From: Reyranella massiliensis 521
Lineage (GTDB): Bacteria; Pseudomonadota; Alphaproteobacteria; Reyranellales; Reyranellaceae
Assembly: GCA_945862125.1 (NCBI GenBank)
Contig: CAMAYC010000044.1
Span: forward strand, 1-34,575
Reading direction: 5' to 3'
DNA: 34,575 nucleotides
Below, in pieces: positions 21,722 through 33,885 of the stretch. The notes under the pieces are model-generated. The model did not search any database and was not told the origin of the DNA. It saw only the letters and a program-made list of their open reading frames with translations. Position 1 is the stretch's first letter, and each line of letters opens with the position of its first letter. A program made the translations under genes and the position numbers.

Positions 21722-22276
21722 ATGGCGACGGGGCTCACCGGGCATGCCGTCGCCATGGCCCGCAACAACATCTGGGCGAACCATCGTCTGCTGACGGCCT
21801 GCAAGCCGCTGTCGGCAGATGAGTTCGCCGCGCCGCGGACGGGCTTTTTCCCCTCGCTGCGGGCCACGCTGAACCACATCCTCTGGGTCGACGTCTACTA
21901 CATCGACGCGCTGCATCGCGATCCCACAGTGCTCAGGCGTTATCACGACCCGATCCCCGATTTCCCGGACGCGGCGTCCCTCTACGACGCGCAGATCGCC
22001 AGCGACCGGCGGCTGCTCTCCTTCTGCGAATGCCAGACCGAGGCGTCGCTGGCCGAGGGACTGGTCCTGCCCCGGCCCAACCGCACGCCGCCGCCATCGA
22101 GCGTGATCTCGATCCTCGAACATCTCTTCCAGCACCAGACGCATCATCGCGGGCAGGCCCACGCCATGCTGGCCGGCACGAGCGTGAAGCCGCCGCAGCT
22201 CGACGAGTTCTTTCTCGCCGGTGAGCAGCACCTGCGACGCGACGAGTTGTTGGCGCTGGGCCTGGAGCCGAGCTGA
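21722..22276 (+). CDS. DinB-family (putative metal-binding four-helix) protein
   Basis: 184 residues. The pattern is that of the DinB/YfiT superfamily: H52 in the LNHILWVD helix, then H138 and H142 in LFQHQTHHRGQ, the three histidines expected to hold a divalent metal. These proteins are often thiol-dependent transferases or enzymes of unknown reaction. The start at ATG 21722 lies 10 bases after the acnA stop, without a strong ribosome site, and an internal ATG 11 codons on is possible. The stop overlaps the next start as TGATG (one base shared), suggesting coupled translation with the VOC-hydrolase fusion. Confidence 0.88.
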   Translation: MATGLTGHAVAMARNNIWANHRLLTACKPLSADEFAAPRTGFFPSLRATLNHILWVDVYYIDALHRDPTVLRRYHDPIPDFPDAASLYDAQIASDRRLLSFCECQTEASLAEGLVLPRPNRTPPPSSVISILEHLFQHQTHHRGQAHAMLAGTSVKPPQLDEFFLAGEQHLRRDELLALGLEPS

Positions 22277-23397
22277 TGCGTCCACGCTCTTCCTTCGCCG
22301 GTGCCGCGATCGAGGTGAGCGACCTCGCGCGCTCGGTGGCGTTCCACCGGCTGTGGCTGCCGATGCTGGGCTTCCATCGCGTCTGGGCAAGCCCCGACCG
22401 CGTGATGTGGTCGCGCGGCTACGACCATTTCGTCATGCGTCAGGCCAAGGACGGCATTTCCTATGGGCCGGGCGCGCTGTGGCTCGCCGTGTCGGCCGAC
22501 AGCCGCGCCCAGGTCGACCAGGTCTTCGCCGAGCTGCGCGACGCAGGCGCCGAGATCATCCAGCGCCCGCAGGAACTCGACTACCTGGCGCCAGGCTACT
22601 ACTCGGTCGGCTTTCGAGATCCCGACGGCGTGCCCATCGAAGTCATGCATCGCTGGGACGAACTGCCCGACATCGCCGATGCCGAGCAGGTGCGCGTGCC
22701 CGGCCACGGCATCAGCCTGGGCGGCTACTTCTTCAAGCCGCAAGCCGGCCAGCCACCTTATCCGGCGCTGGTCCTGCTTCACGGATTTGCCGGCCACGCC
22801 CACAACATGGTCGGGCTGGCGCGCGCTGCCGCGGCCAATGGCTATGCCGCCCTGGCGCTTTCGCTGCGCGGGTGGCTGGGTTCGGAGGGCGAGAACGACC
22901 AGGGGCTGCGCCAACCGCTCGACGTGCTGGCCGCGATCGACTGGCTGGCCAAACGGCCGCTTGTCGACCGTGATCGTATCGGTCTGGTCGGCGCCTCGAT
23001 GGGCGGGCAGGTCGCGCTGCTCGCCGCCGCCCACAAGCCGCCGGTCAAGGCTGTCGCCTCCTTCTTCGCGCCAACCGATCTCGCACGCTGGCGCGAGGCC
23101 AATCCCTTCATGCGCGACTACCTCGACGATCTGTGTGGACCCGAGGGTCTGCCGGTGCGCTCGCCGATCCTGCGCGTGGCGCAGATCGACGCGCCGGTGC
23201 TGCTGATCCACGGCGATCTCGACGAAAACGTGCCGGTGGCGCAGAGCGTTGCCATGGCCGCGGCGCTGCGCGACCACGGCAAGGACGCCGAGGCCTTCGT
23301 GGTCACCGGCGCCACCCACTATTTCACCGAGCAGCAAAATGCCATCGCCCGGCGTAAGCTGTTCGACTTCCTGCGCCGTCATCTCATCCGGAGTTAA
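22276..23397 (+). CDS. VOC (glyoxalase-like) domain fused to dienelactone-hydrolase-like domain
   Basis: 373 residues with two domains. Residues about 8-128 form a vicinal-oxygen-chelate domain (IEVSDLARSVAFHRLWLPMLGF, a long central region and RDPDGVPIEVMHR); of the usual metal ligands, H51 and E122 are in place while the first-strand ligand position looks non-canonical. Residues about 140-373 form an alpha/beta hydrolase with LLHGFAGH (oxyanion), S241 in GASMGG, D316 in HGDLDENVP and H348 in GATHYF, a complete triad. The hydrolase resembles dienelactone hydrolase/S9-type peptidase folds. The ATG overlaps the previous stop codon. The fusion suggests two sequential steps on one small substrate, for example ring fission or isomerisation then ester hydrolysis; that is inference. 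Confidence 0.88.
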   Translation: MRPRSSFAGAAIEVSDLARSVAFHRLWLPMLGFHRVWASPDRVMWSRGYDHFVMRQAKDGISYGPGALWLAVSADSRAQVDQVFAELRDAGAEIIQRPQELDYLAPGYYSVGFRDPDGVPIEVMHRWDELPDIADAEQVRVPGHGISLGGYFFKPQAGQPPYPALVLLHGFAGHAHNMVGLARAAAANGYAALALSLRGWLGSEGENDQGLRQPLDVLAAIDWLAKRPLVDRDRIGLVGASMGGQVALLAAAHKPPVKAVASFFAPTDLARWREANPFMRDYLDDLCGPEGLPVRSPILRVAQIDAPVLLIHGDLDENVPVAQSVAMAAALRDHGKDAEAFVVTGATHYFTEQQNAIARRKLFDFLRRHLIRS

Positions 23398-23403
23398 CCG
23401 TTC

Positions 23404-24075
23404 ATGCGTGTTTCCGAAGCCATCAATTCGCGCCGCTCGATGCGGGTCTTCTCGCCGGAGCCGGTGCCGAAAGCCGACATCGAGTGGATCGTGACCAACG
23501 CCAACCGGGCGGCCTCCAACGGCAACCTGCAGCCTTGGAAGCTCCACATCACGACGGGCAAGGCGCGGCTGCGCCTCTCTGCGGCGATCCTGAAGGCGAT
23601 GGACGACGGCGATTCGGGGCCGGGTGCGGAATACGACGTCTATCCGAAGGAATTCGCGCCGATCTACGACCAGAGGCGCAAGCTGGTCGGCAAGCAGCTC
23701 TACACCCTCCTCAACGTGCCGCGCGGCGATGCCGCCGGCATGCTGAAGCAGTTCCGCAAGAACTACGACTTCTTCGACGCACCGGTCGGCATGATCCTCT
23801 GCATCGAGCGCGGCATGGGCAATGGCCAGTGGATCGACTGCGGCATCTTCCTCGACCAGCTCATGCTGCTGGCCCGCGAGAAAGGCCTGCATACCTGCCC
23901 TCAGGCCGCCTTCAGCCGCTTTCAGCACGTCGTGCGGCGCGAGTTGAAGATCCCCGACAACCAGATCGTGATCTGCGGCCTGGCGCTGGGCCACGCCGAT
24001 CCCGACGTGGTGCCCAACAGCCTGATCACGGAGCGCGCGCCGATCCAGGATTTCACGACCTGGCACAACGAATGA
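23404..24075 (+). CDS. Nitroreductase-family flavoprotein
   Basis: 223 residues. The N-terminal RRSMRVF motif (10-16) binds the FMN phosphate, ASNGNLQPWKLHI (38-50) is the flavin loop, and the C-terminal part has the LLAREKGLHTCPQAAF helix and the VICGLALGHAD motif. It is an FMN-dependent NAD(P)H oxidoreductase acting on nitro, quinone or similar acceptors. A region of about 30 residues around 66-98 (MDDGDSGPGAEYDVYPKEFAPIYDQRRK) is typical of the longer subgroup. It begins 6 bases after the fusion gene. Its stop overlaps the next start as ATGA, so it is cotranscribed and probably translationally coupled with the membrane glycosyltransferase-like gene. Confidence 0.92.
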   Translation: MRVSEAINSRRSMRVFSPEPVPKADIEWIVTNANRAASNGNLQPWKLHITTGKARLRLSAAILKAMDDGDSGPGAEYDVYPKEFAPIYDQRRKLVGKQLYTLLNVPRGDAAGMLKQFRKNYDFFDAPVGMILCIERGMGNGQWIDCGIFLDQLMLLAREKGLHTCPQAAFSRFQHVVRRELKIPDNQIVICGLALGHADPDVVPNSLITERAPIQDFTTWHNE

Positions 24076-25319: not shown

Positions 25320-27253
<1,934 letters not shown>

Positions 27254-27257
<4 letters not shown>

Positions 27258-28594
27258 ACCCGACGATCCAGCAGCTCAGCGCCGACCTCGCGGCCGGCCG
27301 TACCACCTCGCGCAAACTCACCGATGAGGCGCTCGCCCGCATCGAGGACCCGAAGGGCGAAGGCAAGCGCACCTTCATCAAGGTCTGGAAGGCGCAGGCC
27401 TTGGCCGCCGCCGACGCCAGCGATCTAAGGCGCAAGGCAGGTCTCGTCGCCTCGCCGCTGGAAGGCATCCCGGTCTCGATCAAGAACCTCTGCGATGTGG
27501 CAGGCGAGACCACGCTGTCGGGCTCGAAGGCGCTCGACGATGCACCGCCGGCCAAGGCCGACGCACCCGTCGTGGCGCGCCTGCGCGCCGCCGGCGCGGT
27601 GATCGTCGGCAGCACCAACATGAGCGAGTTCGCCTTCTCGGGCGTGGGCTTCAACCCGCACTATGGCACCCCGGGCAATCCCGCCGACCGTACCCGTGTG
27701 CCCGGCGGTTCCTCGGCCGGGGCGGCCGTCTCGGTCGCCGACCGGATGGCCGTGGCGGCGCTAGGCACCGACACCGGCGGCTCGGTGCGCATTCCCGCCG
27801 CCGTGTGCGGCATCGTGGGTTTCAAGCCGACGGCCCGGCGCGTGCCGATCGACGGTGTCATCCCGCTCTCGACCTCACTCGATTCGATCGGGCCGCTCGC
27901 CAACTCCGTGGAAGATTGCGCCATCGTCGATGCGGTGTTCGCCAACCAGCCCATTCACGTGCCCGAGGCGATGCCGCTGTCTGGCCTTCGCCTCGCGGTG
28001 CCCAAGCATTTCGTGATGGACGACCTCGATCCCACCGTCGCCAAGGCCTTCGAGCGCGCCCTGAAAGCGCTGGCCGCCAAGGGCGTGAAGATCGACCATA
28101 TCGACCTGCCCCAGCTCAACGAACTGCCCACCATCAACGCCAAGGGCGGGTTCGCCGCGTCAGAGGCCTATGCCTGGCACAAGGAGCTGATCGCCCGCCG
28201 CGGCAATGCTTACGACCCGTTCGTGGCGCCGCGCATCATGCGCGGCAAGGAGATGACCGCCGCTGACTACATCGAGCTCCTGGGCAAGCGCACCGATCTC
28301 TGCCGCCGCGTCTCGGCGATCACCTCCAATTACGACGCGGTCGCGATGCCGACCTGCGCCATCGTGGCACCGACGCTCGACGAGGTGTCGACGGCCGAAG
28401 GCTTCACCAAGAAGAACATGCTGCTGCTGCGCAACACCACGGTCGGCAACTTCCTCGACCGCTGCGGCATCAGCCTGCCCTGCCACGGCACAGGCGAATT
28501 GCCGGTGGGCTTCATGCTGATGGGCGAGGCAATGGCCGACCAGCGCGTGCTGGCGATGGCGCGGTCGGTCGCGCCGGTCGTGCGCCCGAGCTGA
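27254..28594 (+). CDS. Amidase signature family hydrolase
   Basis: 446 residues. The Ser-cisSer-Lys machinery is present: K77 in IPVSIKN, the GGSSAG segment (151-156) and the nucleophile S177 in [12 protein letters not shown]. It is shorter than GatA and has no gatB/gatC neighbours, so it is more likely a small-molecule amidase than the tRNA amidotransferase. The N-terminus ([32 protein letters not shown]) is the usual helical cap. Its start overlaps the acs stop, so the two are coupled; an amidase releasing a short acid for the synthetase is possible but unproven. It ends the rightward run before a structured intergenic region. Confidence 0.93.
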
Positions 28595-28849
28595 AGCTTA
28601 GACCAAATTCGGGTGCTTTCTCAGACACGATCTGTCCAGAATGTGTCTGTCTGAAAATTCACAAGTCGTTGGCCCGCTTGAACCGGACGATTCTTTTCAA
28701 CGCAGGCCGAATCGTCGGGCCTGTCTGAAAAATAGGCGAAGAAAAACGCCCGGAACGGAGCCGTTCGGGCGTTGCCAGCAGTGGCTGCACATAGGTTCCC
28801 ACTGTAGCTGAAATCTAGCACGAAACCTGCTGAACTTGCAACTAGAATA
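28595..28849. other. Structured non-coding gap between convergent operons
   Basis: 255 bases with no credible gene, less GC-rich than its surroundings. It contains several stem-loops: CAGACAC (28622-28628) with GTGTCTG (28643-28649); GACGATTC (28686-28693) with GAATCGTC (28709-28716); and the leftward terminator listed separately. Leftward, a further short stem, CAGTGG with CCACTG, lies before the terminator. The 11-mer CTGTCTGAAAA occurs directly repeated at 28647 and 28721. It may hold terminators for both operons and possibly a small RNA. Confidence 0.6.
28739..28773 (-). terminator. Intrinsic terminator of the leftward flavoprotein operon
   Basis: Read leftward, a 13-bp stem with one bulged base (arms 28761-28773 and 28745-28758) is followed directly by a run of T residues (from 28746 downward, TTTTT then CTTCG). 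This is a classic rho-independent terminator, about 75 bases after the stop of the last flavin-reductase gene. Rightward it lacks a T-run, so it works mainly in one direction. Confidence 0.85.
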
Positions 28850-29476
28850 TCAAGGATCATCAGGCCGCCGCATCTTCCAGACATTCTCGGTCGTGGTGTA
28901 TTCGCTGTACCCCAGCCGCGCGACCGGCTTGAAGGCCATCGTATCGATTCGGCCGTCCTTGACGATGCCGTCATCGACATGGATGCCGACGACGCGGCCG
29001 AACACCACGGTCGCCCGGTGCGCCTCGCGGCCCTCCTCGACCGGCATCTCGACCGTCTTCCAGTATTTGCACTCCAGAGCGATCGGCGAGCGGGCGACGC
29101 GCGGCGGCTTGACGAAGCGCGACGGCGCCGGGGCGAGGCCCGCCAGCTTCATCTCATCGACGCCGTAGTCGACCATCGTGGTCGTGACGTTCATCTGCTC
29201 GGCGAGCTCGGCGCTCACCATGTTGACCACGAACTCGCCCGTCTCCTCGGCGTTGCGCCGGGAATGCTTGGTCGGGTTGTCGCCATAGGTGCCGGTGGTC
29301 GAGAAATAGACCATGGGCGGCGAGCCGCTGACGGCGTTGTAGAAACTGTAGGGGGCGAGATTGACACGGCCCTGACCGTCGACCGTCGAGATCCAGCCGA
29401 TGGGCCGCGGCACGACCAGCGCCGTGAAGGGAATCTGCATCCCGCCATGGTCGCGGCCGGTCATGTCGTAGAACAT
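28850..29476 (-). CDS. Flavin reductase-like protein, copy 2
   Basis: 208 residues; an FMN-binding split-barrel protein of the flavin-reductase-like (DIM6/NTAB) family. Typical elements are the VVPRPIGWISTVDGQGRVNLAPYSFYN segment (21-47), STTGTYGD--TKHSRRNAEETGEFVVN (about 59-85) and the C-terminal RLGYSEYTTTENVW. These proteins bind FMN and reduce flavin with NAD(P)H or use it as a fixed cofactor. It is the last of four leftward genes, 40 bases after its paralogue, to which it is about 79% identical by direct ungapped comparison. Differences cluster in the first 20 residues and at 48-52 and 105-130, so the core is conserved. It ends before a strong terminator. Confidence 0.92.
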   Translation of the reverse strand: MFYDMTGRDHGGMQIPFTALVVPRPIGWISTVDGQGRVNLAPYSFYNAVSGSPPMVYFSTTGTYGDNPTKHSRRNAEETGEFVVNMVSAELAEQMNVTTTMVDYGVDEMKLAGLAPAPSRFVKPPRVARSPIALECKYWKTVEMPVEEGREAHRATVVFGRVVGIHVDDGIVKDGRIDTMAFKPVARLGYSEYTTTENVWKMRRPDDP

Positions 29477-29493
29477 CTTTCGATCTCGTCTTG

Positions 29494-29526
29494 CTTGGGG
29501 CGACTACTTGGGGCGACTACTTGGGG
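29494..29526. repeat. 13-bp tandem repeat at the stop codon of copy 1
   Basis: The unit CTTGGGGCGACTA occurs twice in a row (29494-29506 and 29507-29519), followed by a partial third copy (CTTGGGG, 29520-29526) that lies in the coding end of flavin-reductase copy 1. On the gene strand each full unit carries a TAG; the first is the real stop. It looks like a slippage duplication of the gene end. Confidence 0.85.
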
Positions 29527-30146
29527 TCGTCCGGCCGGCGCATCCGCCAGACATTCTCCGTGGTGGTGTACTCACTATAACCTAACCGGGCAACCGGTTT
29601 GAACGCCAGAGTATCGATGCGGCCGTCCTTGATGATGCTGTCGTCGATATGGACGCCGACCACCTGGCCGAACACGACCGAGCCGCGCTTGGCCTCGTGG
29701 CCCTTCTCGGTCGGCATCTCGATGGTGCGCCAGTACTTGCATTCGAGGGCGACGGGCGATTCCTTTACGCGCGGTGGCTTCACGAAAGTGGAAGGCACCG
29801 CCGTCAGGCCCGCGAGCTTCAGCTCGTCGACGCCGAACGCCACCATCGCCGTGGTCACATTCATCTGCTCCGCGAGGTCGGCGCTCACCATGTTGACGAC
29901 GAATTCGCCGGTCTGCTCGGCATTCATGCGGCTGTGCTTGGTCGGCGTGTCGCCATAGGTGCCGGTGGTCGAGAAATAGACCATCGGCGGGAACTCGCCG
30001 ACGCCGTTGTAGAAACTGTAGGGCGCGAGATTGACCCGGCCCTGGGAATCGACGGTCGAGATCCAGCCGATCGGCCGCGGCACGATCAGCGCCTTCAACG
30101 GATCCTGCGGCAGCCCGTGGTCGCGCTTGGCGGCATCGTAGAACAT
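29517..30146 (-). CDS. Flavin reductase-like protein, copy 1
   Basis: 209 residues, same FMN-binding split-barrel family as its downstream neighbour and clearly its tandem duplicate. The conserved core is the same (VPRPIGWISTVDSQGRVNLAPYSFYN, TKHSR, TGEFVVNMVSA, LGYSEYTTTENVW). Start at ATG 30146, with GGGAG about six bases upstream. It follows the NDH-2-like gene by 26 bases. A 13-bp tandem repeat covers its stop codon. Retention of two copies with changed surface and N-terminal residues suggests either a heteromer or divided substrates; the sequence alone cannot tell which. Confidence 0.92.
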   Translation of the reverse strand: MFYDAAKRDHGLPQDPLKALIVPRPIGWISTVDSQGRVNLAPYSFYNGVGEFPPMVYFSTTGTYGDTPTKHSRMNAEQTGEFVVNMVSADLAEQMNVTTAMVAFGVDELKLAGLTAVPSTFVKPPRVKESPVALECKYWRTIEMPTEKGHEAKRGSVVFGQVVGVHIDDSIIKDGRIDTLAFKPVARLGYSEYTTTENVWRMRRPDDPK

Positions 30147-30172
30147 GGTCTTCTCCCTCACCCAAAACGAGC

Positions 30173-31387
30173 TTAGCCAAATCGAATGGGCGGCGCCTGC
30201 ACCGTGGGCGCCGCGGCGTCGAGGATCGACCGGCGATCGCCCGACCGCGGCGGATAGATGCGCTCGCGGTTGATGATCTCCTTGGTCCGCTTGGCCGTAG
30301 CGCCTTGCGATACCAGCTTTCGGTCCCAGCCCTCGGTGTAGACGGCGCCCCACGGGCCGAGGTCGAGGATGGTCGTGTACCAGTCGATGCGAAGCGGCAG
30401 CAACGGCTGGCCGAGCAGATCGCAGACGACATTGTGGCCTGCGAAACGGCCCATCGGCCTTCCGTGCTGGCACGACATCACCGAGCAGTGCACGTCGTCG
30501 ACCAGCAGCCAGGCGCAATCGCCCGCGGCGAACTCGGCCGCCAGGCCTTTGATCTTGAGCGACGGTTCGACCGGCAGCCGGCCCAATCGGTCGCGTTCGA
30601 CCGGGAACTGGGCGGTGAGCGGATGGGCCTTCATGCCGGCGCACCAAACGACGGTGGCGGCGGCGATGCGTTCGCCTGTGGCCAGGGTCGCGCCTTCGGC
30701 ATCGACCGCCGCCACCGAGACACCGCCGCGCATCTCCACGCCAAGCGTGCCAAGAGCTTCGTCGATCACAGGCTGGGCGCCCGCGCCCATGTCGCTGCCG
30801 ATCCGGGGCGCATGATCGGCCAGGATGACGCGGGGCGACGCGATGCCGGCCGCCCGCAGCTTGCCGGGCATCTCGGCCGCCGCTTCGATGCCGGTCAGGC
30901 CGCCACCGACCACGAGCACGGTCGACCTGCCCGATGACACAGGCTGCTTCACCAGGCTTGCGATGTGAGTGTTGAGCCGCTGGGCGGCCGCATGCGTGTC
31001 GACATCAAAGGCATGATCGCCCAGCCCCGGAATCGGCGGGTGGGCAAGTCGGCTGCCGAGCGCAAAGACCAGCCGGTCGTAGGCGATGTCCTGTGAGGCC
31101 CCATCGGATCGGTAGGTGACGGTCCGTTGCGCGACGTCGATGCCGGTGACCTCGCCCTCGAGACGACGGACGCCGATCGGGCCCAGCACGCTGTCCAGGG
31201 CGACACGTGTGTCGCCGAGATCGGCCTCGTAGTTGCGCACGCGGATCGAATGCCAGGCCGTCCGGTCGATCACCACGATCTCGACCCGGTCGGCGCCGAC
31301 CTTCAATTCATCCAGCGCACGGGCCGCGCCGATCGCGCTCCACAGGCCGGCGAAGCCGGCACCAAGCACCACGATGCGCTGCGCCAC
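30173..31387 (-). CDS. NDH-2-like FAD-dependent NAD(P)H oxidoreductase
   Basis: 404 residues. The FAD-binding GAGFAG (9-14), the NAD(P)H-binding GGGLTG (161-166) and the second FAD motif EFAAGDCAW (285-293) are in the order of type II NADH dehydrogenases and related pyridine-nucleotide disulfide oxidoreductases without the redox disulfide. WCAGMKAHP (248-256) is the usual bridge. It is somewhat short, and the C-terminal membrane-anchoring part is weakly developed, so a soluble or peripheral diaphorase is possible. The start is GTG 31387, chosen because GAGGAGG lies eight bases upstream; a longer in-frame N-terminus reads into the upstream gene and is arginine-rich noise. It sits 13 bases after the MESH1-like gene and before two flavin-reductase genes. 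Confidence 0.9.
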   Translation of the reverse strand: MAQRIVVLGAGFAGLWSAIGAARALDELKVGADRVEIVVIDRTAWHSIRVRNYEADLGDTRVALDSVLGPIGVRRLEGEVTGIDVAQRTVTYRSDGASQDIAYDRLVFALGSRLAHPPIPGLGDHAFDVDTHAAAQRLNTHIASLVKQPVSSGRSTVLVVGGGLTGIEAAAEMPGKLRAAGIASPRVILADHAPRIGSDMGAGAQPVIDEALGTLGVEMRGGVSVAAVDAEGATLATGERIAAATVVWCAGMKAHPLTAQFPVERDRLGRLPVEPSLKIKGLAAEFAAGDCAWLLVDDVHCSVMSCQHGRPMGRFAGHNVVCDLLGQPLLPLRIDWYTTILDLGPWGAVYTEGWDRKLVSQGATAKRTKEIINRERIYPPRSGDRRSILDAAAPTVQAPPIRFG

Positions 31388-31400
31388 CGATCCGTCCTCC

Positions 31401-31943
31401 TCAGCCGAGATGCCGCCTGGCATCGGCATAGGCCTGGTCGAACGCCGCATCGAGCGTGGCGTTGAGACCGCGGCACGAGCGCACCACCTGCTCGGCCCAG
31501 CCGACATAGTCGCGCAGCCGCTCCGGCGTCCATCCCTTCGGCGGGCTGCTCACCATGCTGCGCAGGTTGGACGTCTTGTCGGCGACCTTCAGCAGCTTCG
31601 CCCGCCGCGACTTCGACGGTGTCTTGTCGATCTGCAGGCGCTTGCGCTCTTCCTTGGGCAGCGACTTGTCGTCGGTTACCTCGGCCACCAAGGCAGCGAC
31701 GTCGGGGCCGAAACGCTGTGTCAGATCCTCGTAGGTCGCGTCGGTGTCTTCGAGCGTGTCGTGCAGCAGCCCGCCGGCCAGCAGCGTGACATCGGTGCCT
31801 CCGGTCGCTTCGGCGAGCAAGGCCGCCACCTCGGTTAGGTGGTTGATGTAGGGCTCGGCGCGCTCGCCCTTGCGCCGCTGGGCGATGTGCTGGCGGGCGG
31901 CGTAGTCGGCGGCACGCGCCAGGAGGACGATATCGGCGCTCAT
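31401..31943 (-). CDS. MESH1-like HD hydrolase (small alarmone/NADPH phosphatase)
   Basis: 180 residues, a single HD domain of the (p)ppGpp hydrolase type, with no synthetase or regulatory domains. Metal and catalytic residues are H35, H61-D62, E65-D66 and D122 with N126 (motifs YINHLTEVA, LLHDTLEDTD and VADKTSNL). Length and residue numbers match those I recall for human MESH1. Related enzymes hydrolyse (p)ppGpp, and MESH1 also removes the 2'-phosphate of NADPH. Start at ATG 31943 with GAGGA just upstream; a TTG one codon earlier is unlikely. It is the first gene of the leftward operon that continues with an NADH-dehydrogenase-like flavoprotein and two flavin reductases, and it diverges from the Sco gene. 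Confidence 0.9.
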   Translation of the reverse strand: MSADIVLLARAADYAARQHIAQRRKGERAEPYINHLTEVAALLAEATGGTDVTLLAGGLLHDTLEDTDATYEDLTQRFGPDVAALVAEVTDDKSLPKEERKRLQIDKTPSKSRRAKLLKVADKTSNLRSMVSSPPKGWTPERLRDYVGWAEQVVRSCRGLNATLDAAFDQAYADARRHLG

Positions 31944-32009: not shown

Positions 32010-32588
32010 ATGTCGCGTACCATGAAAGTCCTGCTGGGCGTCTGGATTGCCGCCCTCGCCGTCGCCGCCGGCTGGATCGGCTGGGATGCCGTCCGGGGCG
32101 ACCGCCCGAGCATCGGCGGGCCCTTCACCCTGGTCGACCAGGACGGCCGCACCGTCACGAGCGACAGCCTCAAGGGCAAGCCGACGCTGATCTACTTCGG
32201 CTTCACCTACTGCCCCGACGTCTGCCCGACCTCGCTGTTGCTGATGGAGACGGCAATCGAGCAGCTAGGGCCCGATGCCGCAAAGAAGGTGAACCTCGTC
32301 TTCATCACCATCGATCCCGAGCGCGACACGCCGGCGCTGCTGAAAGGCTACGTGCCCAATTTCGGCCCGACCTTCATCGGCCTCACCGGCACGCCGCAGC
32401 AGGTGGCCGACGTCGCCCGCGCCTTTCGCGTCTATTATCAGAAGGTCCCGGGCAAGGATGGCGGCCCCTACCTGATGGACCACTCCTCGATCGTCTATCT
32501 GCTCGACCGCAACGGCCGGTTCGTCACCCACTTCACCCACGAGGCCAAGGCCGATGCGATCGCCAAGGCCGTGGGACGGTTGCTCTAA
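32010..32588 (+). CDS. SCO1/SenC-family copper chaperone
   Basis: 192 residues. One N-terminal membrane anchor (about 5-25) precedes a thioredoxin-like domain. The copper ligands C68 and C72 (YCPDVCP) and H158 (MDHSS) are all present, as are the FTLVDQDGRTVTSDSLKGKPTLIYFGFTYC and ITIDPERDTP segments. These proteins deliver copper to the CuA site of cytochrome oxidase or act in periplasmic thiol and redox control. No oxidase genes are in the window. The start could be ATG 31998, 32010 or 32022; none has a clear ribosome site and the anchor is intact in all. Divergent from the MESH1-like operon. Confidence 0.93.
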   Translation: MSRTMKVLLGVWIAALAVAAGWIGWDAVRGDRPSIGGPFTLVDQDGRTVTSDSLKGKPTLIYFGFTYCPDVCPTSLLLMETAIEQLGPDAAKKVNLVFITIDPERDTPALLKGYVPNFGPTFIGLTGTPQQVADVARAFRVYYQKVPGKDGGPYLMDHSSIVYLLDRNGRFVTHFTHEAKADAIAKAVGRLL

Positions 32589-32664: not shown

Positions 32665-33885
32665 ATGCTTTATCAAGCCTATGAATTCCAACGGCAGTTC
32701 GCGAACCCGGTCCGGCTTTGGGCCAACGCGCTCGAGCAGGCCTATTCCAGCCCCTACAACCCCCTGACTGAAACCTGGGTCGGCAAGTCGATCGCGGCGA
32801 GCGCCGAGATCGTCGCGCGGCTCACGCAGAACTACGGCAAGCCCCACTTCAACCTGAAGACCACGCAGATCGGCAATGAGACTGTCGAGGTCAACGAAGA
32901 ACTGCTGCTGCGCAAGCCGTTCTGTGACCTGGTCCATTTTCATCGCGATACCGCCCGGCGCGACCCCAAGGTCCTGGTGGTGGCACCGATGAGCGGCCAC
33001 TTCGCCACCCTGCTGCGCGGCACCGTCGAGGCGCTGCTGCCCGAGCACGACGTCCACATCACCGACTGGAAGGATGCCCGCGAGGTGCCGCTCACCGCCG
33101 GCAACTTCTCGCTCGACGACTACATCGACTACATCATCGCCTTTTGCCGCTACCTCGGGCCCGACGTGCACGTGATCGCCGTCTGCCAGCCCTCGGTGCC
33201 GGTGATGGCCGCGGCCGCGCTGATGGCTGAAGCCAAGGACCCGCGCCAGCCGCGCTCGCTCACCCTGATGGGCGGCCCGATCGACACACGCCAGAGCCCG
33301 ACCGTTCCCAACGACCTGGCGATGCGAAACTCGATGATGTGGTTCCGCCAGAACGTGATCTCGACGGTGCCCTTCGGCTATCCCGGCGCCATGCGCCGCG
33401 TCTATCCCGGCTTCCTGCAGCTCACCAGCTTCATCTCGATGAACCTGGACCGGCACGTGAACGCCCACATGCGCCAGTTCGAACATCTGGTGAAGGGTGA
33501 CGACGATTCGGCCGATGGCCATCGCACCTTCTACGACGAATATCTCGCGGTCATGGACCTGAGCGCCGAATTCTACCTTCAGACCATCGAGGTCGTTTTC
33601 AAGGAACACCTGCTGCCGCGCGGCGAATGGGTGAGCCGCGACCGCAAGATCGACCCCTCGTTCATCGAGACGGCCCTGATGACGGTGGAAGGCGAACTGG
33701 ACGATATTTCGGGCATCGGCCAGACCAAGGCGGCCCACGCGCTGACGCCGAACATTCCCGGTGCCCGCCACGTCCACTGGGAGCAGCCCCGGGTCGGCCA
33801 CTACGGCATCTTCAACGGCCGCAAATGGCGCGAGCAGATCATGCCGCGGGTCCGCGCCTTCATCCGCGAGAACGACGCGCGCTAG
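32665..33885 (+). CDS. phaZ: Intracellular polyhydroxyalkanoate depolymerase
   Basis: 406 residues. It degrades stored native PHB granules. The nucleophile is a cysteine, C174, in IAVCQPSVP in place of the lipase-type serine. D346 (GELDDISG) and H379 (VGHYGIFNG) complete the triad. The spacing equals the C183-D355-H388 triad I recall for the Ralstonia/Cupriavidus intracellular PhaZ, shifted by nine. The N-terminus MLYQAYEFQRQFANPVRLWA is characteristic. No ribosome-binding site is visible before ATG 32665. It stands alone, 76 bases after the Sco gene. It implies that the organism stores PHB, although no phaC or phaR is in the window. Confidence 0.95.
   Translation: MLYQAYEFQRQFANPVRLWANALEQAYSSPYNPLTETWVGKSIAASAEIVARLTQNYGKPHFNLKTTQIGNETVEVNEELLLRKPFCDLVHFHRDTARRDPKVLVVAPMSGHFATLLRGTVEALLPEHDVHITDWKDAREVPLTAGNFSLDDYIDYIIAFCRYLGPDVHVIAVCQPSVPVMAAAALMAEAKDPRQPRSLTLMGGPIDTRQSPTVPNDLAMRNSMMWFRQNVISTVPFGYPGAMRRVYPGFLQLTSFISMNLDRHVNAHMRQFEHLVKGDDDSADGHRTFYDEYLAVMDLSAEFYLQTIEVVFKEHLLPRGEWVSRDRKIDPSFIETALMTVEGELDDISGIGQTKAAHALTPNIPGARHVHWEQPRVGHYGIFNGRKWREQIMPRVRAFIRENDAR

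Follow-up and report, generated by a model that had tools for sequence, protein, structure and literature searches.

A probable orphan small alarmone hydrolase upstream of putative flavin reductase genes in Reyranella massiliensis 521, and neighbours that come and go independently

The window analysed here is the entire contig C44 (34,575 nucleotides) of the Reyranella massiliensis 521 genome, which comprises 5.2 Mb in 271 contigs and is 97.55% complete. It carries a minus-strand row of four genes, encoding a MESH1-type HD hydrolase of 180 residues (hereafter MESH1), an FAD/NAD(P) oxidoreductase (NDH2L), and two tandem Flavin_Reduct proteins (FR1 and FR2; their relatives elsewhere are referred to as the flavin gene). 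Our preferred explanation, to which we assign a probability of roughly 70%, is that the first gene encodes an orphan, promiscuous proteobacterial Mesh1-type alarmone hydrolase with weak NADPH activity, and that this gene ended up upstream of a flavin gene. The case cautions against reading too much into a suggestive operon: here the genes taken for partners are gained at the site and lost from it separately, and since the neighbours come and go independently in relatives, the gene order says little about the function of the enzyme. As it stands, the gene adds one more alphaproteobacterial Mesh1 to a known family.

Judged by its sequence and predicted structure, the protein (31401-31943, minus strand) is a small alarmone hydrolase (SAH) of the proteobacterial Mesh1[H] type, that is, of an already known kind. 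Its only Pfam matches are HD_4 over residues 11-136 (70 bits) and an overlapping HD model, and a synthetase domain is absent. The alignment with human MESH1 runs without a gap over 165 residues, 80 of them identical, so that the numbering is common to both; with the fly enzyme, 80 of 162 residues are identical. All seven of the catalytic and metal-binding HD residues (H35, H61, D62, E65, D66, D122, and N126) are present, and none of them varies in either of two alignments, one of 23 and one of 28 sequences, own protein counted in each. The first of these took 6 of the 21 sequences from the genus and all 17 from other members of the class; the second took 27 of the 80 named loci described below, with L155 and L157 left out. 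Among solved structures, the best matches in a sequence search were human 3nr1 (E 9.4e-47) and fly 3nqw (1.3e-46), with the next family at 5.6e-17. The predicted model (pLDDT 96.9) superimposes on human 3nr1, 5vxa, and 9chy with TM-scores of 0.92-0.93 and on the fly structure with 0.91, and the fold ranking places human MESH1 first and the fly enzyme next, with the SAHs of Pseudomonas and Corynebacterium behind. A sequence-only reading of this DNA had described a single-domain HD enzyme carrying the MESH1 residues, and in this it was right.

The likeness to the animal enzymes, with their single HD domain, extends to R24, K25, K97, R142, W138, and Y146, which are common to both. Three of these are adenine-site positions: in human MESH1, K25 is reported to touch the adenine of NADPH, and R24 and Y146 are reported to border that site when an inhibitor is bound (PMC12934728). 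Together, R24, K25, and Y146 make up a common nucleotide site, and their presence does not discriminate between NADPH and alarmones. The two kinds of protein differ in their host, which here is a bacterium with a long RSH bearing a synthetase domain, and in their tree group. In a tree of 74 rows (own protein, 10 of the 20 others from the genus, all 17 class sequences, 43 of the 80 named loci, human, fly, and one long-RSH HD region), the protein falls within a mostly alphaproteobacterial Mesh1 set (28 rows; 92/78, not starred), whereas human and fly lie inside a mostly beta- and gammaproteobacterial set (17 rows; 95/90), and the long RSHs split off at 100/100. These placements should be read in the knowledge that the bootstrap had not settled, that 25 of the 71 inner branches are open, and that one row, L157, holds an internal stop, written X. 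An exclusive clade of the genus and the animals is a borderline case in the approximately unbiased (AU) test (p 0.0506).

Two further observations concern the family at large. Contigs from metagenome-assembled genomes (MAGs) titled Bordetella parapertussis (L140) and Klebsiella pneumoniae (L164) carry MESH1-like genes branching near alpha- or betaproteobacterial sequences, and the titles may be mislabelled. Some members of the genus possess a further, more distant small HD hydrolase elsewhere in the genome (L117, L118, and L119, from G001, G006, and G004, respectively, and G016:C1:970012-970344), with 37-43% identity and open frames of 203-231 residues.

The genome contains a single match to the RelA_SpoT synthetase domain (PF04607), which lies inside an RSH of 733 residues, and no small alarmone synthetase was found in the assembly, although a gene may have been missed given its completeness and number of contigs. 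As far as the assembly shows, then, the protein would be an orphan SAH. We also considered a synthetase/hydrolase toxin-antitoxin pair and rejected it, as no small synthetase was found in the genome and there is none among the four genes. The Mesh1[H] subgroup was defined in 2011 in alpha-, beta-, and deltaproteobacteria, in a paper that names "Rel[HS], Mesh1[H]" among the combinations typical of alphaproteobacteria (PMC3153485). The present genome has the same pair; what sets it apart is that its gene adjoins flavin genes, which we have seen in one genus only.

By analogy with the chemistry of the family, we expect a manganese-dependent HD enzyme that would mainly take the 3'-pyrophosphate off (p)ppGpp and (p)ppApp, its role being to fine-tune the alarmone pool that the one long RSH produces. 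A slower 2'/3'-phosphatase side activity may act on NADPH, and perhaps on coenzyme A (CoA) or 3'-phosphoadenosine 5'-phosphosulfate (PAPS). The orphan bacterial SAH of Xanthomonas campestris, XccSAH, probably has this alarmone and NADPH chemistry in common with our protein, as a member of the same family. XccSAH differs in its group, which is Mesh1-L, sister to that of our protein, and in reportedly lacking the nicotinamide-riboside motif (PMC9765508). XccSAH is reported to turn NADPH into NADH in vitro, and its mutant to be depleted in NADH; this was published in 2022 (PMC9765508), so the suggestion in the sequence-only reading that an NADPH role had not been described in bacteria no longer holds. 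The same source gives a kcat/Km of ~5e5 for ppGpp vs 3.6e2 for NADPH, ~1400-fold lower. Another bacterial enzyme, SAHMex, is described as not hydrolysing NADPH, and for the fly and human enzymes the account there is of phosphate release only at the higher enzyme dose, bar a trace, and of none by thin-layer chromatography (PMC7644958).

One may also ask whether the enzyme is mainly a (p)ppApp hydrolase, guarding against toxic alarmone synthetases that competitors deliver. XccSAH is reported to favour pppApp and its mutant to be killed more readily by Pseudomonas (PMC9765508), and the patchy spread of MESH1 relatives, which at E 1e-20 reach 17 of the 385 genomes of the class (own genome included), would suit such a use. 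On the other hand, the genome has no small synthetase of its own that we could find, and attempts to tie the base specificity of SAHs to particular residues are reported to have failed (PMC7644958). We regard this explanation as quite unlikely.

The preferred reading, an alarmone hydrolase whose gene came to lie beside a flavin gene, draws much on how the neighbours are distributed. The genus set comprised R. massiliensis 521 and 36 further genomes; ten of them are 73-89% complete, and therefore some absences may be assembly gaps. A MESH1 orthologue (at least 74% identity) was found in 21 of the 37, an NDH2L orthologue (at least 75%) in 17, one of which (G034) has an internal stop, and the flavin gene (at least 75%) in 36. 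A second flavin copy is present in eight genomes, namely our own, G010, G019, G023, G026, G030, G032, and G036. Both MESH1 and NDH2L occur in 8 genomes, MESH1 only in 13, NDH2L only in 9, and neither in 7, which is not a positive association (odds ratio 0.48, Fisher p 0.33). NDH2L adjoins the flavin gene in all eight genomes with both genes and also in all nine without MESH1, and G393, a further genus genome that came out of the class search, carries NDH2L and the flavin gene at the site, and no MESH1. In G019 the NDH2L match is broken (L008:2057-3180; query residues 2-35, then 69-402), the gene there being either partly deleted or mis-assembled.

Counting our own, eight of the 37 genomes have the three-gene order and six have the four-gene set, G019 with its broken NDH2L match being one of the six, so the context is conserved beyond this strain; in the unrelated genera examined, it was not encountered. 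In a species tree built from the RSH protein, the eight genomes with both genes form one supported clade (100/97), and four changes of presence are needed for MESH1 and four for NDH2L. This tree used 33 of the 37 genomes, there being no RSH match in G006 and G034 and only fragments in G007 and G010.

Outside the genus, the most instructive site is that of G222 (L284:131-1439), which belongs to another genus of the same family. There, the flavin gene is divergent from the SCO1-PhaZ pair that also flanks the cluster in the window, with ~130 bp between the flavin gene and SCO1, and neither MESH1 nor NDH2L lies between. G222 has a MESH1 of its own on that contig, at a distance of ~73 kb, and in the tree this sequence falls outside the group of the genus. 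The site next to SCO1 may be a small hot spot of insertion or loss. In our proposal, the history of the genus would include the insertion of MESH1 at a single position between SCO1 and the flavin gene, where it would then have been retained.

Relatives of the flavin gene, NDH2L, PhaZ, and SCO1 were searched for in the DNA around MESH1 relatives further afield. They were present in none of the 17 loci from the 16 other class genomes (5-12.6 kb fetched) and in none of 79 named loci listed, in the fetched DNA. These named loci are the best 80 of the relatives listed; many are long RSHs, and 37 were taken as Mesh1/SAH-like. The remaining one of the 80, L158, is titled as a MAG of the Xanthobacteraceae and displays the synteny of the genus, with MESH1 directly adjoining the flavin gene. 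Weak matches resembling AcsA in L101, L113, L142, and L146 (23-28% identity) were taken as other AMP-binding enzymes. When up to four open frames of at least 90 residues per side, chosen greedily by length, were counted as neighbours, no family recurred in more than 4 of the 54 loci (37 Mesh1/SAH-like and 17 class; 356 neighbours). In the reverse direction, no flavin gene was found within ~1.5 kb of NDH2L at 20 class-level loci outside the genus, and neither MESH1 nor NDH2L within ~1.5 kb of the flavin gene at 26 fetched loci outside the genus. With the linkage seen in one genus and absent from the outside loci examined, the association of MESH1 with the flavin gene seems to reflect a single local history and not a module. 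A conserved redox operon was rejected as a description of the cluster, since the linkage is found in one genus only and MESH1 and NDH2L sort independently. A full-text search of open-licence literature for an alarmone hydrolase, a flavin reductase, and an operon together returned no paper, and this specific gene cluster may be unreported.

These distributions bear directly on the idea that MESH1 is a dedicated NADPH phosphatase, making NADH for the NADH-dependent flavoproteins encoded behind it. The idea has its attractions: the four genes form a tight co-directional cluster, the residues of the human NADPH/inhibitor site (K25, R24, and Y146) are all there, and XccSAH is reported to perform the reaction and to affect NADH in vivo (PMC9765508). 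The second dinucleotide-binding strand of NDH2L is, moreover, followed by D192 (in LADHAP); an acidic residue at this place suits NADH. It nevertheless has to accommodate NDH2L and the flavin reductase without MESH1 in 9 of the 37 genomes, MESH1 and the flavin reductase without NDH2L in 13, and a linkage absent from all the outside-genus loci examined once L158, with its genus synteny, is set aside. NADPH is also a poor substrate for XccSAH (PMC9765508) and is reported not to be hydrolysed by SAHMex (PMC7644958). Finally, the genome holds matches to PNTB-family transhydrogenases, of which one is complete, another nearly so (it lies at a contig end), and a further one partial. These enzymes link NADPH and NADH directly, so the exchange would not hinge on MESH1. 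We consider a dedicated NADPH phosphatase very unlikely. The sequence-only reading had taken the operon context to favour an NADPH-to-NADH role; with MESH1 and NDH2L independent within the genus, the linkage absent from the loci examined outside it, and the site in G222 without both genes, the context lends that role no such backing, and functional coupling of MESH1 to the flavoproteins is not indicated.

Several points weigh against our preferred reading. MESH1 shares its strand with the flavin gene at every one of the 21 genus loci, and either adjoins it or is one gene off. A relative of the flavin gene (E 1e-45) is present in 11 of the 16 class genomes with MESH1 vs 104 of 365 others (Fisher p 0.0013), in a comparison made outside the genus with no correction for genome size or for kinship, four of the 16 being from a single family. 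In G318, from an unrelated family, ~8 kb lies between MESH1 and a relative of the flavin gene on the same strand (C1:3802760-3811709), possibly by chance. Lastly, (p)ppGpp is reported not to be a substrate of SAHMex, a bacterial SAH (PMC7644958). Since the tree needs only four changes of MESH1 presence, the complete linkage in the genus stands for few independent events and weighs weakly; the class-wide excess and the G318 pair are likewise weak as counter-evidence.

One could also picture a Mesh1 specialised within the genus as a cofactor phosphatase (for NADPH or for CoA/PAPS), its expression tied to the flavin reductase and with NDH2L as an optional companion; the class-wide excess would then reflect function instead of kinship or genome size. 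We judge this highly improbable. Related to this is the proposal that the enzyme is a broad 2'/3'-phosphatase of adenosine cofactors with CoA or PAPS as its main substrate, as reported for animal MESH1. Human MESH1 has been reported to be a phosphatase of CoA (PMC13221220) and is said to be one of PAPS (PMC12934728); the human structure 9chy was solved with PAPS, and genes for an acetyl-CoA synthetase and for PhaZ lie near the site in the window. Those CoA-related genes, however, occur as well in genus genomes that lack MESH1, the organism has its own alarmone synthetase, and no test of a bacterial enzyme on CoA or PAPS was met in the literature consulted; we hold this to be unlikely. A CoA-metabolism island was rejected on similar grounds, as the acetyl-CoA synthetase, the amidase, and PhaZ are kept in most of the fetched genus loci without MESH1. 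Should a cofactor reading prove true, the cluster would allow NADPH, CoA, and PAPS, whose standing as non-alarmone substrates of MESH1 is debated, to be studied in a bacterial model.

Turning to the other members of the row, NDH2L (30173-31387, minus strand, GTG start) is a putative FAD/NAD(P) oxidoreductase of the two-dinucleotide-binding superfamily, with a Pyr_redox_2 match of 130.6 bits and the type II NADH dehydrogenase 4nwz as its top PDB match (E 4.8e-24). The two are of similar length, and none of the NCBIfam models comes near its cut-off against NDH2L. The quinone-site motif of type II NADH dehydrogenases is AQxAxQ; the position reads SCQHGRP in NDH2L, and a [ST]CQ[HF] pattern is found in 11 aligned relatives. 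Because the motif is replaced, the protein is not clearly an NDH-2, and the label "NDH-2-like" is valid, on this sequence evidence, at superfamily level. The single-sequence model (pLDDT 40.8) is too poor for a C-terminal membrane anchor to be read from it.

FR1 (29517-30146, minus strand) and FR2 (28850-29476, minus strand) are identical at 164 of 208 residues, which makes them tandem copies. Their PF01613 scores of 69.8 and 74.6 bits, respectively, lie well above the curated cut-off of 27, and both are best described as putative flavin reductases of this family. FR1 has PDB matches to 1eje, 3bpk, and 4z85. The FMN-binding protein 1eje and component B of nitrilotriacetate monooxygenase (3bpk) belong to PF01613 as well and align over near the full length, though the matches are modest (E 8e-28 and 4e-24, respectively).

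The gaps between the four genes, in order from MESH1, are 13, 26, and 40 bp, and purine-rich stretches resembling ribosome-binding sites precede the first three starts, that of FR2 being weak. The row is likely to be one transcription unit. The operon proposed in the sequence-only reading thus survives as a co-directional cluster, with the qualifications that the NDH-2 likeness is one of superfamily, that the two reductases are copies of each other, and that their activity is predicted. A terminator-like hairpin with a U-rich stretch lies downstream of FR2 (28740-28773, minus strand; -24.1 kcal/mol, shuffle z -2.76). One site of a terminator consensus scan overlaps it, and the scan total of 2 equals what chance would give (mean 2.1). 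A promoter scan returned one weak site, inside a gene, vs 0.4 expected.

Several genes around the cluster served as syntenic landmarks. On the plus strand and 66 bp from the MESH1 start, a divergent SCO1/SenC gene (32010-32588; PF02630, E 5.4e-52) is followed by one for the polyhydroxybutyrate depolymerase PhaZ (32665-33885; TIGR01849, 607.8 bits). On the other side, an amidase gene (27254-28594, plus strand; PF01425) converges on the cluster, preceded by one for an AMP-binding enzyme of the acetyl-CoA synthetase type (25320-27257, plus strand; PF00501 and PF16177). Further away, the open frame at 22276-23397 combines a glyoxalase-type match (residues 12-123) with prolyl-oligopeptidase and dienelactone-hydrolase matches (within 149-370) and is a possible fusion; a nitroreductase gene follows just after it, at 23404-24075.

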